A stretch of 64,000 nt of DNA from Bacteroides fragilis. Its GTDB lineage: Bacteria; Bacteroidota; Bacteroidia; Bacteroidales; Bacteroidaceae. The stretch covers positions 310,001 through 374,000 of the forward strand of contig NZ_SZUU01000003.1 of assembly GCF_019583405.1 (NCBI RefSeq), given 5' to 3'. Shown piece by piece: positions 57,591-64,000 of the stretch. Positions within the stretch are counted from its first letter, which is position 1, and every line of letters starts with the position of its first letter. A program made the position numbers and the translations under genes. The notes under the pieces were generated by a model. The model worked only from the letters and a program-made list of their open reading frames with translations. It did not search any database and was not told the DNA's origin.

Positions 57591-58382
57591 ATGAAAAAAG
57601 TATTGTTTTCAATTTGCATGGCAGGTGCAGCATTCGCAATGTCATCTTGTGGTTCAACCAAAGAGACCGCTTCTTTATCATCTTTAAATGGTGAATGGAA
57701 CATTATTGAAGTGAACGGTTCGGCTATTGTTCCGGCAGAGAATCAGGAATTGCCGTTTATCGGTTTTGATACAGCAACTGGAAAAGTATATGGTAACAGC
57801 GGCTGTAACCGTATGATGGGTTCGATAGACCTAAATTCAAAACCCGGTACTATTGATATGAGTCGTTTGGGAAGTACTCGTATGGCTTGTCCTGATATGA
57901 CAACGGAACAAAATGTACTGAATGCATTGGGACAGGTAAAGAGTTATAAAAAACTGGGTAAACAGAACATAGCTCTTTGTAATGCTTCCAGTCGCCCGGT
58001 AGTTGTCCTTCAGAAGAAAGTATCTACGGTGAAGTTGTCTGCACTGAGCGGTGAATGGAAAATAGAGGAAGTGAATGGTGAGACTATCCCTTCCGGTATG
58101 GAGAAGCAGCCTTTTATCAGTTTTGACGTTAAAAAGAAATCTATTCATGGAAATGCCGGATGTAATCTGATTAATGGGGGATTTGAAACTGATAAAGAAA
58201 ATCCTCGTTCTATTTCTTTCCCAAATGTTATTTCTACTATGATGGCTTGTCCGGACATGGAGGTAGAAAGTAAAGTGATGAAGGCTATCAATGAGGTGAA
58301 ATCATTTGATGTGTTGTCCGGTGGTGGAATTGGTTTGTATAACGCAGACGGAACACTGGTAATGGTGTTAGTGAAAAAATAG
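57591..58382 (+). CDS. META-domain lipoprotein with two META repeats
   Basis: 263 residues. Lipoprotein signal MKKVLFSICMAGAAFAMSSC. Two similar META (HslJ-like) domains: first LNGEWNIIEVNGSAIVPA ... GNSGCNRMMGSID ... TRMACPDMTTEQNVLNAL; second LSGEWKIEEVNGETIPSG ... GNAGCNLINGGFE ... TMMACPDMEVESKVMKAI. Likely outer-membrane lipoprotein of stress or envelope function. The frame extends upstream to 57414, but the promoter at 57554 rules that out. Confidence 0.88.
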   Translation: MKKVLFSICMAGAAFAMSSCGSTKETASLSSLNGEWNIIEVNGSAIVPAENQELPFIGFDTATGKVYGNSGCNRMMGSIDLNSKPGTIDMSRLGSTRMACPDMTTEQNVLNALGQVKSYKKLGKQNIALCNASSRPVVVLQKKVSTVKLSALSGEWKIEEVNGETIPSGMEKQPFISFDVKKKSIHGNAGCNLINGGFETDKENPRSISFPNVISTMMACPDMEVESKVMKAINEVKSFDVLSGGGIGLYNADGTLVMVLVKK

Positions 58383-58387
58383 AAGTG

Positions 58388-58455
58388 CCTTAGTTAAAAG
58401 ATACAGAGAAGGGTGTCCTGCAAAGGACACCCTTCTCTGTATCTTTTAACTAAGG
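58388..58455. terminator. Perfect 32-bp hairpin with GCAA loop between convergent genes
   Basis: 58388-58419 and 58424-58455 are exact inverted copies (32 of 32) separated only by GCAA. The outer part is A/T-rich, the inner part carries GGGTGTCC. It lies six bases after the META gene stop and 22 bases before the stop of the convergent permease gene. It surely terminates both, but it is far longer than needed. Confidence 0.85.
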
Positions 58456-58477
58456 TTTAGTATAATAATGGTTCTTC

Positions 58478-59479
58478 TTATTTTAGATATGAGTTGCGGA
58501 ATATGATCCAAACGATTACTGGAGAGCCAAACAAAGCAGTTACTGCATTGATAGGTAATGTACCCTGCATTCCGGGCATTTGAGAAATTAAGTCACAAAT
58601 TAACAGCGTAATGGCACCACACAGTATGGAGCCCGGAAGAATAATACGGTGGTTAGGGCTCCCAAACAATCCTCTGGCTACATGGGGCATGGTGATGCCT
58701 ATGAAGGCTATAGGACCGGTAAAAGCTGTCGAAGTTCCGGCCAAAAGTGCAGTGGCCAGAATAATCCAGAGGCGTAATCTGGTCACAGAGACTCCCAATC
58801 CGTTGGCATAGTTTTTTCCCAACAACAAGATATTGAGTTGTTTTTGCAAGAGCAATGCAGTCAGAATTCCACAGGCAATGACGGGGGCCATCACACTCAT
58901 CTGTTCCCAGCCCACTGAAGAGAGGCTGCCAAAGGTCCAGGTAATAAAAAGCTTGAGAGTATCCGGATTGCTCATGCTTTGCAGGATACTGACGATGGCA
59001 CCGGCAAAGTTGCCGAACATCATGCCTATGATTAACAGGGAGACAGTCTGAGGTATTTTGATAGAAACGATTATTACCAATAATAAAACTCCTATAGCCC
59101 CAATGATAGCAGCTGTCACTTGCCCCCATCCTGCTATGAGCCACAGGGGAAGCGAAGAAGTGCCTAAAGTGAGTAAGGCTACTCCCAGGCTGGCGCCGGA
59201 AGTTACTCCCAATACGTCAGGACCGGCCAGTGGGTTATGAAACAAGGTCTGCATCAATACTCCGGCAACAGAAAGTGATGCTCCTGCTAAAATAGCTGTT
59301 AATGCTTTGGGAAGTCGGTGATTGATGATAATTTCACGATAGATAAGATTATCACTGCCTCCGGTAAGCGTATCCCATACGTCTCGTATGGAGAGGTTGA
59401 CGCTCCCAATAGCAATATCTGCCATGAAAGCAACGACTAACAATATGATTAATAATAAAAACAGCCGGTAGTTTTTCAT
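58478..59479 (-). CDS. FecCD-family ABC transporter permease
   Basis: 333 residues with about ten membrane helices. Signature stretches: HRLPKALTAILAGASLSVAG, FHNPLAGPDVLGVTSGASLG, GPIAFIGITMPHVARGLFG (contact with the ATPase), and LFGSPVIVWIIFRN. Imports a ferric siderophore, haem or cobalamin across the inner membrane. Its start overlaps the stop of the binding-protein gene by four bases. No ATPase gene follows; the operon ends at the hairpin. Confidence 0.92.
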   Translation of the reverse strand: MKNYRLFLLLIILLVVAFMADIAIGSVNLSIRDVWDTLTGGSDNLIYREIIINHRLPKALTAILAGASLSVAGVLMQTLFHNPLAGPDVLGVTSGASLGVALLTLGTSSLPLWLIAGWGQVTAAIIGAIGVLLLVIIVSIKIPQTVSLLIIGMMFGNFAGAIVSILQSMSNPDTLKLFITWTFGSLSSVGWEQMSVMAPVIACGILTALLLQKQLNILLLGKNYANGLGVSVTRLRLWIILATALLAGTSTAFTGPIAFIGITMPHVARGLFGSPNHRIILPGSILCGAITLLICDLISQMPGMQGTLPINAVTALFGSPVIVWIIFRNSYLK

Positions 59480-60618
59480 TCACTTTTTAATTTATCCATG
59501 TAAGTTAACTCGTAGTCAGGCAATAGTGTCGGATGAACGATCTTGATCATATCACTCAATAATAGATCTGGACGAGCTACTCCACTTTCCCAATAATCGT
59601 TTCCACCAGTAGCATTTGTCCGCTTGTTTATATGGTATACATTGTCGTCTTTATATGATTTGAATAGTTTGTATTTTGGGTCCATTCGTCCCAACTCTTC
59701 CAAAGTATTGGCTTGTACGCCTACCCATATGTCAGCTTGGTTGAAATGTATCAGAGCTTCTTCAATACTGCTGGATATACTACCGGAAGCTGTTGTGTCG
59801 TTGGCATAATAGTAATTGGCACCTGCATCGCGGAAGAGTTGTGAACTATAGCTTCTTCCTCCCGGCATAGACCAGGTTCCCCTGTAATCTTGCCCGGAAA
59901 GTATAGAAGGCGCATATGAAAATTTCTCGGCACTCTTTTTTACTTCATTGTATTGTTTTGCTATTTGCCCGAAAATGCTGTCAGCCAATGCTTCTTTGTC
60001 GAAAAAGGCTCCGACAAATTTAATCCATTCTGCACGTCCCAGAATAGATTTTTCTTGCCATTCAATATTATATAGGATAGGCAATCCCGTTTGTTTCATG
60101 CGTCGGCTGTTTTCGTCTTCGGTATTGTAGGCAGAAGTCATTACGGCCTGTGGGTGTAATAAAAGTAAGTTTTCTATGTCCAGATTGAAAGCATCGCCCA
60201 AATCTTTTATTTTACCCTCTTTGACACCTTGCAGAATGGTAGGATTGTAAATATAGGCCGAGTTGCACACCCCTGTCACTTTATGCAATTCCCCCAGAAG
60301 TTCAAGAAAACCCAAATGAGTAGCTGAGTTGGTCATCATACTTTTTAGTGGGATCACTATTTTGTGACCATTGGCAGGGACAGGCTGATCTTCGGTTTTC
60401 ACAAGATAATAGATATCATAGGCCTCTCCCGGTTTCCAGGGATTATATACTGTTACTGTAGTGTATTCAGGAGAATGTGTTATTCCGAATCCTTCTGCGT
60501 ATGAAAGAGGGGCCGGAACACCTTCTTCGACAGTGAGTGTTGCTTTCTGCTTTTCTTTGCAAGCAGTGAGCAGAAATGATATTAGTACAAAAAGAATAAA
60601 AGAAGATCGGTTCATCAT
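59476..60618 (-). CDS. ABC transporter periplasmic binding lipoprotein, iron/cobalamin type
   Basis: 380 residues; lipobox FLLTACKEK. Two-lobed helical-backbone fold of the FecB/BtuF class (LLLHPQAVMTSAYNTED, WIKFVGAFFDKEALADSIF, SMPGGRSYSSQLFRDAGANY). The ligand cannot be named. First gene of a two-gene operon with the permease. A -7 box (TATTTTTG, minus, 60652-60645) lies 27 bases upstream. Confidence 0.88.
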   Translation of the reverse strand: MMNRSSFILFVLISFLLTACKEKQKATLTVEEGVPAPLSYAEGFGITHSPEYTTVTVYNPWKPGEAYDIYYLVKTEDQPVPANGHKIVIPLKSMMTNSATHLGFLELLGELHKVTGVCNSAYIYNPTILQGVKEGKIKDLGDAFNLDIENLLLLHPQAVMTSAYNTEDENSRRMKQTGLPILYNIEWQEKSILGRAEWIKFVGAFFDKEALADSIFGQIAKQYNEVKKSAEKFSYAPSILSGQDYRGTWSMPGGRSYSSQLFRDAGANYYYANDTTASGSISSSIEEALIHFNQADIWVGVQANTLEELGRMDPKYKLFKSYKDDNVYHINKRTNATGGNDYWESGVARPDLLLSDMIKIVHPTLLPDYELTYMDKLKSE

Positions 60619-60644
60619 ACTTTAAATATTGATTAGTCGTGGTG

Positions 60645-60652
60645 CAAAAATA
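60645..60652 (-). promoter_or_regulatory. Promoter -7 element of the ABC binding-protein operon
   Basis: TATTTTTG on the minus strand, 27 bases before the start codon. Confidence 0.5.
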
Positions 60653-60727
60653 CAGGATTATTCCGGATTATAGGTCTGCCTAATAAGGAAAATGCCGTAA
60701 ATACGAGCAAAGGGAAAATTGATGGAG

Positions 60728-60959
60728 ATGTGTTTTTAAACGTACGTTTAAAAACACATTAAAAATAAATAATTCATTGAAAGAAAAGATTTATAAAATC
60801 ATAGAGATAAAATGAAAAGAGAAAGAACAGCCACTGATTTGAGAATGAGGTTATTTCAATAAAAATGAAAGTTAAATAAAAGTCTTTTTATTAAACACTT
60901 TGTGTATTTAAATATTAGCTTTATCTTTGTGACAAATAAACGTACGTTTAAAAACACAT
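60728..60959. promoter_or_regulatory. Invertible promoter segment of the capsule-type operon
   Basis: 23-bp perfect inverted repeats at 60728-60750 and 60937-60959, core AAACGTACGT, flank about 186 bp that contains a complete promoter facing the capsule genes. The core fits the ARACGTWCGT consensus I recall for Mpi-controlled capsule promoters of B. fragilis. The present orientation is ON. The left repeat is itself part of a perfect 32-bp palindrome (60728-60759). The rest of the 400-base gap up to 61023 holds no other gene. Confidence 0.8.
60899..60929 (+). promoter_or_regulatory. Capsule operon promoter inside the invertible segment
   Basis: TTTG (60899-60902), 19 bases, TATCTTTG (60922-60929). 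Transcription would start near 60935 and cross the right inverted repeat into the operon; inversion would point it away. Confidence 0.75.
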
Positions 60960-61023
60960 TTTTTAGATATAATATGCTGATAATAAGAATTTTTTATTGA
61001 GAATTTATTAAAAGTTAACCACT

Positions 61024-61137
61024 ATGAATTTATTGGGATTGATTCTTGGAAGTGTAATATTGGGGCTGCTTGCTTGCCTGATATGGATACTTTATGATTT
61101 TCGGCGATTTAAGAAGAAAAATAACCTTATAGAATGA
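61024..61137 (+). CDS. 37-residue single-helix membrane microprotein
   Basis: ATG at 61024 to TGA at 61137: MNLLGLILGSVILGLLACLI then WILYDFRRFKKK and a short end. One hydrophobic helix of about 21 residues followed by a basic tail, an inner-membrane protein with the tail in the cytoplasm by the positive-inside rule. It is the first frame after the invertible promoter and ends nine bases before the export gene. Too short for standard gene finders. Function unknown. Confidence 0.55.
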   Translation: MNLLGLILGSVILGLLACLIWILYDFRRFKKKNNLIE

Positions 61138-61146
61138 CTTAGGCAA

Positions 61147-63309
61147 ATGGGCAAGAAAGTATTAGTCTTTTTACTGCTTTTTTTATTTATTGGATGGGTA
61201 AGTGCTCAACAAGGAGAGTTGGGAAGAGTAGTAGGGCAGAGCACACAAACTCAGGTTTTTGGGCGCAATATATTTGCAAGTCGGAACTTGTCATTTGAAC
61301 CTAATCTGAATATTCCTACTCCGGAAAACTACATGTTAGGACCGGGAGATGAAGTGATAATTGATATATGGGGAACTTCGGAAAATACGGTAAGAGAGAC
61401 TATCTCTCCCGAAGGAAGTATTTTGGTGGAGAACATCGGTCCTATTTACCTGAGTGGTCTGAACATGCAGGAGGCCGAGCAGCATCTACGGCGTGAATTT
61501 AGTAAAATCTATGCAGCTATCTCCGGAGAATCGGTACATATCAAGGTGACATTAGGGAAGATACGTTCCATTATGGTTAATGTCATGGGGGAGGTTGAAG
61601 TTCCCGGTACCTACCGGTTATCTGCTTTTGCATCAGTGTTTCATGCTTTGTATCGGGCCGGAGGGGTCAATCGAATTGGCAGCTTGCGTACGATTCAAGT
61701 CGTGCGGAACGGTGAAAAGGTAGCCGATGTGGATGTATATAAATATATAATGGAGGGAAAACTGGCAGATGATATCCGTTTGTCGGAAGGAGATGTGATT
61801 CTGGTCTCTCCTTATGAGAATCTGGTCGGTATTTCAGGAAAAGTGAAACGACCGATGATTTATGAGATGAAACAGGGAGAGTCTCTGGCTGCCTTAATCA
61901 ACTATGCAGGCGGCTTTACGGGGGATGCTTATCGGAATACGGTTCGTTTATTGCGTCGTAGCGGAAGAGAGAAGCAAATATATAATGTAGATAAAGTGGA
62001 TTATGAAAACTTTATTCTGACTGATGATGATGAAGTTTCCGTAGAGGCGGTATTAGATCGTTTCTCTAATAAAGTGGAAGTTCGTGGGGCGGTATATCGT
62101 GCCGGTATGTATCAACTGGACAGTTTGACAGGAACTATAAAACAACTGATATGTCAGGCCGAAGGGCTTCGTGGGGATGCTTTTCTTAATAGAGCGTTGC
62201 TTAAGCGAGAGCGTGAGGATCTGTCACATGAAATGATTCCTGTTGATTTAAGGAAATTGATGGAAGGTATTATTCCGGATTTACCCCTTCAGAAAAATGA
62301 TGTACTTTATATATCGAGTATCCGGGAACTGGAAAAGGAAGGAACATTGGCTATTTATGGTGATGTGGCAAATCCGGGATATTTTCCTTTTGCTAAAAAT
62401 ATGACTATCCAGGATCTGATTTTAAAAGCCGGTGGTCTGTTGGAATCAGCTTCAACGGTTCGTATCGATGTATCGCGGCGTATTAAAGATGCTAAAAGCA
62501 CCTCTTCCTCTTCTGTAATAGGGAAAAGTTTTACGGTTGAATTGGAGAATGGCCTATTGGTAGGAGCAAAGCGGGTGTTTGAATTGGAACCTTATGATAT
62601 GGTTTTTATACGTAGAAGTCCGGGCTATCAGAAACAGGCGAATGTGACGGTTGACGGAGAAGTAATATTCACAGGCAACTATGCGCTGACTAAAAGGAAT
62701 GAACGGTTGAGTGATCTGATAGCTAAGGCCGGAGGATTATCGAAAGATGCCTATGTAAAAGGTGCACGCCTGATGCGTAGGATGACAGCTGATGAAATCC
62801 GGCAAAAACAAGATGCAGTCCGGTTTGCTGTTAAGGGAACCGGAAAAGATTCGGTATCTTTGGCTGCTCTGGAAGTCGATCAGACTTATTCAGTAGGTAT
62901 TGAACTTGAAAAAGCATTGGCAAAACCAAAGTCCGATGAAGATTTGGTGTTGCGTGAGGGAGATGTACTTTTTATTCCTAAATATGTCAGTACTGTGACC
63001 ATTACCGGAGCTGTGATGTATCCCAATACGGTTCTTTATCAAAAAGGAAGTGGAATTGATTATTATATAGGTCAAGCGGGCGGCTTTGGCAACCGGGCCT
63101 TGAAGCGACGTGCCTATGTTGTATATATGAATGGCACTGTTTCCCGATTAAGACACAATACGGCAAATGCCATTGAGCCCGGGTGTGAAATAATCGTTCC
63201 CACTAAAGAAGAACGGAAAAAAGCTACTGTGTCCGGAGCAGTAGGCATGAGTAGTTCCATTGCTTCTATTGCTGCAATGGTTGCTTCTATGGTGAGTTTA
63301 ACAAAATAA
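61147..63309 (+). CDS. Wza-like polysaccharide export protein with SLBB repeats
   Basis: 720 residues. Signal peptide (VLVFLLLFLFIGWVSAQ; no lipobox Cys at the usual place), Poly_export domain (YMLGPGDEVIIDIWGTSENT, ISPEGSILVENIGPIYLSGL) and at least four SLBB units (VMGEVEVPGTYRLSAFASVF, GISGKVKRPMIYEMKQGESL, IYGDVANPGYFPFAKNMTIQ, TGAVMYPNTVLYQKGSGIDY). The C-terminus has one helix (ASIAAMVASMVSL) that could cross the outer membrane. It would form the channel for capsule or exopolysaccharide exit. Missing here: a Wzc-like partner, likely beyond the window. Confidence 0.92.
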   Translation: MGKKVLVFLLLFLFIGWVSAQQGELGRVVGQSTQTQVFGRNIFASRNLSFEPNLNIPTPENYMLGPGDEVIIDIWGTSENTVRETISPEGSILVENIGPIYLSGLNMQEAEQHLRREFSKIYAAISGESVHIKVTLGKIRSIMVNVMGEVEVPGTYRLSAFASVFHALYRAGGVNRIGSLRTIQVVRNGEKVADVDVYKYIMEGKLADDIRLSEGDVILVSPYENLVGISGKVKRPMIYEMKQGESLAALINYAGGFTGDAYRNTVRLLRRSGREKQIYNVDKVDYENFILTDDDEVSVEAVLDRFSNKVEVRGAVYRAGMYQLDSLTGTIKQLICQAEGLRGDAFLNRALLKREREDLSHEMIPVDLRKLMEGIIPDLPLQKNDVLYISSIRELEKEGTLAIYGDVANPGYFPFAKNMTIQDLILKAGGLLESASTVRIDVSRRIKDAKSTSSSSVIGKSFTVELENGLLVGAKRVFELEPYDMVFIRRSPGYQKQANVTVDGEVIFTGNYALTKRNERLSDLIAKAGGLSKDAYVKGARLMRRMTADEIRQKQDAVRFAVKGTGKDSVSLAALEVDQTYSVGIELEKALAKPKSDEDLVLREGDVLFIPKYVSTVTITGAVMYPNTVLYQKGSGIDYYIGQAGGFGNRALKRRAYVVYMNGTVSRLRHNTANAIEPGCEIIVPTKEERKKATVSGAVGMSSSIASIAAMVASMVSLTK

Positions 63310-63316
63310 GAGATAG

Positions 63317-63841
63317 ATGAATATAAATGAAAAGCCCGAAATGGCGGAGAAACAGTCATGTCATTGGTATCTTGCTTTTACAGCTTCGCGGGCAGAGCAA
63401 CGTGTAAAACAAGAACTGGATCAACGAAAAGTGCGGAATTATCTTCCGTTGCGGAAAATTACTTATCAATGGCAGGGTCGTCCCAAGGAAACATTGTTAC
63501 CACAGATAACTCGTTGCATTCTTATCCGGGCTTCAGAATCTGATGTTTTGCAGTTGTCCGGAATACAAGGATTAATTATTCCTCACAATATATGGGAATA
63601 TCGGATACCGGAATGGCAGGTGAACAGTTATCAATTACTGTTTTCTCATATAGATACTGCTGTGGAGTGGATACCTGATTGTCCGGAACCGGCTCCTATG
63701 GTTCGTGTCACCGGAGGTTCTTTAAATGGACTGGTGGGCGAACTTGATACTTCGGAAACAGAAATGCGGATAATGATCCGTTTTCATGCTATGGGATGTT
63801 TTCGCATAACCATACCCGGAGAGTGGATTGAAAGGCTTTAG
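63317..63841 (+). CDS. UpxY-family transcription antiterminator (NusG-like)
   Basis: 174 residues. NGN domain (CHWYLAFTASRAEQRVKQEL, RKVRNYLPLRKITYQWQGRP, LLPQITRCILIRAS) and a C-terminal KOW-like part (PMVRVTGGSLNGLVGELDTS). Each B. fragilis capsule operon has its own UpxY that prevents premature termination in the long leader; there it is usually the first gene, whereas here it follows the export gene. No upxZ is seen before the window ends. Confidence 0.85.
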   Translation: MNINEKPEMAEKQSCHWYLAFTASRAEQRVKQELDQRKVRNYLPLRKITYQWQGRPKETLLPQITRCILIRASESDVLQLSGIQGLIIPHNIWEYRIPEWQVNSYQLLFSHIDTAVEWIPDCPEPAPMVRVTGGSLNGLVGELDTSETEMRIMIRFHAMGCFRITIPGEWIERL

Positions 63842-64000
63842 ATTATACTTTCTCTTTTTTTCATCTCAACGATAATTCCTCGTCTGTTACAGGGCGGGGA
63901 ATTATTATTTCATTTTCCCTGTAACTTTGACTCCTTTTCACCTTTTAGATGACATAAGAATACCAAAATCTGACTTTCTGTCAGAATCCTGTCATTTTCG
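63842..64000. other. Non-coding end of the window, with two hairpins
   Basis: TTACAGGG/CCCTGTAA (63887-63894 with 63917-63924) and TCTGAC/GTCAGA (63969-63974 with 63980-63985). No gene starts before the edge. These could be terminators or pause sites at which UpxY acts, but the run stops here. Confidence 0.45.

Follow-up and report, generated by a model that had tools for sequence, protein, structure and literature searches.

Two questions are raised by a Bacteroides fragilis locus in which a short DNA segment carrying a promoter lies between two matching repeats: why one of these repeats should be a perfect palindrome, and whether sites arranged in this way lead to inversion of the promoter, to its deletion or to both. 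The locus lies in a window of 64,000 nucleotides, the whole stretch of DNA analysed here, and all positions are counted from the first letter of that window.

Two recombination sites enclose a promoter that faces a polysaccharide-export operon

Recomputation confirmed the inverted repeats reported in the initial annotation, with arms of 23 nucleotides (60728-60750 and 60937-60959) that are 100% identical and spaced by 186 nucleotides. The promoter-distal recombination site is, as also annotated, a perfect 32-bp palindrome (60728-60759; like the other site and the segment, unstranded), composed of two identical half-sites, ATGTGTTTTTAAACGT, of 16 + 16 nucleotides without a loop, its centre falling between 60743 and 60744 with TA as the central dinucleotide. 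No other perfect palindrome in the 64-kb window has an arm of at least 9, and in 30 dinucleotide-Markov windows, representing the chance expectation, arms reached 10 at most. The promoter-proximal recombination site (60928-60959) also has TA as its central dinucleotide, and the centres of both sites read ACGT on the left and ACGT on the right. Its outer half (60944-60959) matches the arms of the palindrome; its inner half (60928-60943) is divergent and overlaps the final two bases of the −7 box. With crossover assumed at the two centres, the invertible segment would span 60744-60943, which is 200 bp in length. The same two sites also form the direct repeat that had been noted before, the length of identity being 24 nucleotides (60737-60760 and 60937-60960) rather than 23.

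Taking the core motif of Mpi-type sites to be of the form ARACGTWCGT, we found 5 matches in the window against 0.23 expected, with 4 of the 5 located at the two switch sites. The core of the switch, AAACGTACGT, fits this presumed form and not the ARACGTTCGTN quoted in PMC8375218; the Mpi motif and this locus are the same but for one base, so that the putative crossover is TA here and TT in the repeat as quoted there. No match to positions 60650-61140 was found among phage and plasmid records, and Rfam at the gathering threshold gave nothing in 58000-64000.

The complete promoter claimed to lie between the repeats was found inside the segment in the Bacteroides form TTTG-19-TATCTTTG (60899-60929, plus strand), with TTTG at 60899-60902 followed by 19 nucleotides and TATCTTTG at 60922-60929, the consensus used for this assignment being what we take the Bacteroides promoter to be. 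A sigma-70 scan of 60500-61300, which is uninformative for the Bacteroides phylum, gave 2 sites against 3.1 expected. The promoter points right, toward the polysaccharide-export operon, and this is the ON orientation. Downstream are a small ORF of 37 aa (61024-61137, plus strand) with counterparts at both orthologous loci, whose product is likely a small membrane protein, a polysaccharide export protein of 720 aa (61147-63309, plus strand) with Poly_export and SLBB domains, and a NusG-domain protein (63317-63841, plus strand) assigned as a UpxY-like antiterminator with a score of 76 bits, short of the 100 required by NCBIfam. The UpxY-like gene is followed by an ORF recognised by eye as DnaK-like. 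On the other side of the segment lies a divergent periplasmic binding protein gene (59476-60618, minus strand), which an inverted promoter would face, and after it comes a FecCD-family permease gene. The unit at 61024-63841 appears as a stand-alone phase-variable combination of small ORF, export protein and UpxY-like antiterminator without an adjoining glycosyltransferase, and we speculate that it may act on polysaccharide loci elsewhere.

The segment is inverted in two other genomes

The export gene has its closest named relative, at 99% identity, in B. fragilis Q1F2. In that genome the segment is inverted (OFF) between flanks of 99% and 92% identity, with the promoter directed away from the operon and the palindrome on the operon side. 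The orthologous segment of a second genome (G081) is likewise inverted (OFF), with flanks of 84% and 88% identity. These two orthologues uphold the proposal of a phase-variable promoter that is ON in the present genome: both orientations occur between genomes, the promoter inside the segment faces outward, and the segment flips between lineages, although a between-genome comparison of this kind gives no rate within a culture. Among the promoter-defined switches of this genome, 10 of 12 could be paired through both flanks with a segment in Q1F2 or G081; 3 of these, the polysaccharide-export switch included, were inverted in Q1F2 and/or G081.

Whichever way the segment lies, the palindrome is at its promoter-distal end. 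All of its 32 columns are identical in the three orthologues, and its inner half is invariant in 16 of 16 columns compared with 95 of 139 mid-segment (Fisher 0.006); the promoter is identical at 28 of 31 positions in three genomes. Being invariant across the three orthologues, the palindrome is therefore maintained and not newly grown, and the earlier description of one repeat grown into a palindrome was rejected.

An Mpi-family invertase accompanies the switches

Three Resolvase-family matches are present in the genome, one of which, at 315 bits, exceeds the cut-off of 272 bits that NCBIfam sets for 'master DNA invertase Mpi'. The gene of this Mpi-family invertase is open and adjoins a tyrosine recombinase gene, and in NCTC 9343 the same invertase/tyrosine recombinase neighbourhood is found with BF2779 and BF2780 (PMC3090145). 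At an identity of at least 76%, a line set after the data had been seen and lying at a gap between 76% and 57%, an Mpi-family enzyme was found in 22 of 95 genus genomes; at E 1e-40, a relative was found in 39 of the 95. Each of the 21 genomes with at least one two-site switch is among the 22 with Mpi (Fisher 4e-20). One genome, G140, carries the enzyme at this identity but has no switch-pattern match, and 7 further genomes gave one pattern match each, without a convincing partner site. We infer from this co-occurrence across 95 genomes that Mpi acts at the switch, and the presence of an Mpi-family invertase gene together with the inverted orthologues supports the original assignment to the Mpi type.

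In the mechanism that we propose, the Mpi orthologue, a small serine recombinase, would bind each site as a dimer with one subunit per half-site, cut at the central TA and swap half-sites, and the 200-bp segment would thereby flip. In the ON state the promoter would read toward the small ORF, the SLBB exporter and the UpxY-like genes, and in the OFF state it would point away from them. Judged from the sequence comparisons, the locus is very probably an Mpi-type invertible promoter with recombinase dimer sites at which inversion is normal and deletion is rare or absent.

The locus resembles the Mpi (FinA, BF2779) switches of B. fragilis, for which at least thirteen regions have been given (PMC5903667), in invertase family, in its Bacteroides-type promoter and in its polysaccharide-related target. 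Unlike known Mpi switches, however, it has a perfect palindrome at the distal site, and its target is an exporter with a UpxY-like gene and without an adjoining glycosyltransferase. IVp-I and IVp-II of B. fragilis are invertible promoters too, one of them preceding an exopolysaccharide operon (PMC4747536), but their recombinase is the tyrosine recombinase Tsr19, which is of another class than Mpi. In the portions of the literature available to us outside the founding Coyne 2003 and Kuwahara 2004 papers, palindromic distal sites and TA cores in Mpi switches are not described.

The promoter-distal site tends to be the more symmetric of the two

Outside the core, the outer and inner half-sites of this locus agree at 11 of 13 positions at the distal end and at 2 of 13 at the proximal end. 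Serine invertases bind their sites as dimers, so that each site comprises two half-sites; those that match here are both outer halves and the distal inner half, with the proximal inner half divergent. The comparison was extended to 132 promoter-proximal matches in 28 genomes, of which 90 were aligned with their distal site and 29, with a distal outer half-site ending in AATCGT, were counted apart. Two matches at contig ends (L268, L269) and 11 without a convincing partner (L198, L199, L200, L223, L263, L264, L265, L280, L287, L289, L303) were left out of the symmetry count, L264 and L287 having first been given a spurious partner before they were dropped; switches with another −7 box fall outside the promoter pattern.

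In the 90 aligned switches, which come from 15 genomes, symmetry is higher at the distal site in 68, equal at the two sites in 8 and lower at the distal site in 14; these counts are not independent because many switches are related by descent. A symmetry of 11/13 is reached by 33 distal sites and by 3 proximal ones. In the present genome, 6 of the 12 promoter-defined switches have a nearly symmetric distal site (at least 11/13) while no proximal site does (0), and the geometry can thus hardly be called unusual, as it had been at first. The rule of distal symmetry fails in the 29 AATCGT switches (distal more symmetric in 13, equal in 3, less in 13), and 14 of the 90 others run opposite to it; for all 119 switches, the distal site is more symmetric in 81, equal in 11 and less in 27. 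The 29 AATCGT loci are found among L180-L182, L242-L256 and L274-L296, and, among the rows listed for these switches, the inner halves of the two ends are more alike than the outer halves.

We propose that the left site is fully palindromic because both of its half-sites represent the same good target, and that the palindrome stays distal in both states because the distal inner half travels with the segment and both outer halves match. By this proposal, the proximal inner half-site could not match as well, because it also forms the promoter end and the transcript start. In B. intestinalis, RNA-seq located the transcript start of promoters of this kind, approximately, within the proximal repeat (PMC8375218). 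Were the proximal end a full palindrome, the mRNA would carry a hairpin at its 5' end. Thus, on the pattern of half-site matches, the palindrome would be best read as a recombinase dimer site with matching half-sites, and for annotation such a palindromic end would denote a good dimer site rather than a grown repeat. Upstream of 55 other homologues of the export gene with at least 600 bp of upstream sequence, no such switch was found; 3 more homologues had too short an upstream region.

Possible alternative roles of the palindrome and of the OFF state

The palindrome could instead be chiefly a transcription element, namely an intrinsic terminator that in the OFF state sits just before the operon and makes OFF tight. 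For a 71-nt stretch of the OFF orthologue that contains the palindrome, the folding energy is −15.9 kcal/mol (z −4.0), whereas the hybrid site present in the ON orientation shows almost no folding (−4.2, z 0.4), and in Q1F2 a run of seven T starts at the last base of the palindrome. For another B. fragilis switch, the number of repeats separating promoter and genes has been reported to correlate inversely with expression (PMC4747536). However, the T-run is broken in G081 (CTTTT after the palindrome), the gene on the other side is divergent and leaves no evident transcription in need of a stop, and many other switches also have a nearly symmetric distal site. We consider it unlikely that termination is the main role of the palindrome.

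The OFF orientation could also have a function of its own if the switch were a two-way toggle in which the divergent transporter genes are transcribed from the inverted promoter. The start of the divergent gene is at 60618, 125 nucleotides from the crossover centre and on the strand to which the inverted promoter would be directed, and the left flank is 98% identical in Q1F2. But the transporter gene has its own promoter-like TATTTTTG (60645-60652, minus strand), and in another B. fragilis switch the orientation was without effect on the upstream operon (PMC4747536). Such a toggle is, in our view, quite unlikely.

Inversion and deletion at sites with a TA core

Reading the palindrome as a dimer site leaves the choice between inversion and deletion to be considered. 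A serine recombinase joins the ends through a 2-base overlap. In the 90 aligned switches the presumptive crossover dinucleotide is TT in 75 and TA at both ends in 15. If this dinucleotide is indeed where crossover takes place, TT would pair only in the inverting alignment and TA in either one, so that deletion would in principle be permitted by the self-complementary TA rather than by the direct repeat. The Listeria phage A118 integrase yields both deletions and inversions at sites with a symmetric core dinucleotide, and in other serine recombinase systems the orientation of a site is set solely by the asymmetry of this dinucleotide (PMC3556126). Combined with the TA core seen here, the A118 result indicates that the chemistry would allow deletion. 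The 24-nt direct repeat, the self-complementary TA at both sites and the A118 precedent (PMC3556126) would all suit a dual-outcome switch, in which the two sites recombine in inverted or direct alignment and a regular subpopulation is left irreversibly OFF.

The scar expected from deletion is an outer half joined to an outer half, without the promoter. The pattern used required the exact core ACGTACGT and half-sites of the form TYWWWARACGT, would miss other half-sites or a changed core, and was run on 158 genus genomes; the TA-cored switches L183, L202 and L221 are outside its list. It returned 35 symmetric TA-cored sites in 9 genomes, 32 of which have a partner site 131-202 bp away (degenerate at G061:C36 and differing by one core base in G141 and G079). 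The remaining 3 are situated some 100 bp from the end of a contig, each with an inner promoter-side half-site; two of them have a promoter on the inner side, and the third shares the inner half-site of the paired site at G061:C36. None of these 35 pattern-matched sites in the 158 genomes is a promoter-less deletion scar. A tighter pattern, applied earlier to 95 genomes, had matched at 5 places in 3 of them, each inside a two-site switch. Three lone exact TA-cored sites from the two close genomes (G000:C5:232038, G124:C1:3552956 and G124:C1:4775022) have no such symmetric half-sites. The three orthologues found for the present locus are all whole, and a search of the upstream regions of 55 other export-gene homologues gave no lone symmetric site. 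Since one genome per species was searched with a strict pattern, the result opposes common fixed deletions and not rare ones in culture. Of the suggested irreversible OFF state, what holds is that the TA dinucleotide permits deletion, but none of the 35 sites carries its trace, and regular loss of the promoter seems very improbable.

Inversion may rather be imposed by the geometry of the synapse. For Hin, the enhancer complex gives the direction of inversion through such geometry (PMC3798978). The finding that core asymmetry alone sets orientation elsewhere speaks against a geometric bias at TA sites (PMC3556126). Were the dinucleotide the sole determinant of direction, TA switches would be expected to undergo deletion as well as inversion, and their persistence in several genomes hints that it is not the sole determinant. 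We know of no enhancer for Mpi switches, and their TA-cored segments are only 131-204 bp in length. No account of how Mpi-like enzymes invert rather than delete was found in the parts of the literature available to us. The presence of TA- and TT-cored switches in one genome, presumably served by one enzyme, represents a natural test of inversion versus deletion.

A symmetric invertase site is also known from the Hin system, in which hixC is reported to bind Hin more strongly and to invert 16-fold more slowly than hixL and hixR (PMC2427008). Whereas hixC is composite and is placed at every end in constructs, the symmetric site here is natural and occurs at one end only. The Mpi subset with a TA core and one fully symmetric end might, as a tentative suggestion, have given up its sequence cue for direction and be natural counterparts of hixC, with rare irreversible loss of the promoter in each culture or with inversion imposed by the shape of the synapse alone. 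That the repeats are a chance or fossil structure, inactive now, is scarcely credible in view of the opposite orientation between close relatives, the open invertase gene and the conserved sites.

Further switches and palindromes

In Q1F2, another TA-cored pair of sites 204 bp apart with a TATTTTTG box (L320 525-729; G124:C1:2924819-2925034) was missed by the TAYCTTTG pattern, so that the numbers of switches given here are minima. At L323 (11373-13721), L324 (3518-8961) and L325 (2332-9219), genes arranged in tandem encode proteins of about 490-540 aa that look lipoprotein-like on visual inspection, and each gene has its own 131-bp Mpi-type switch with an outward-facing promoter directed away from it. 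Both TT and TA cores occur in a single array, and we speculate that this mixing might keep neighbouring switches from recombining together. A two-site TA-cored element lies between divergent GT11 and GT90 glycosyltransferase genes (G000:C6:106600-106799; L313 456-644, L358 3006-3194), with the same orientation in Q1F2. Both of its ends are palindromes with different arms, one of them 40 bp in length, and after inversion these ends would turn into direct repeats. Finally, thirteen copies of the palindrome TCATTAAACGTACGTTTAATGA were observed at L345-L353 (G061, G149), most with a partner 177-189 bp away, and several contigs end in or near these copies, as if the assembly broke at the switch.
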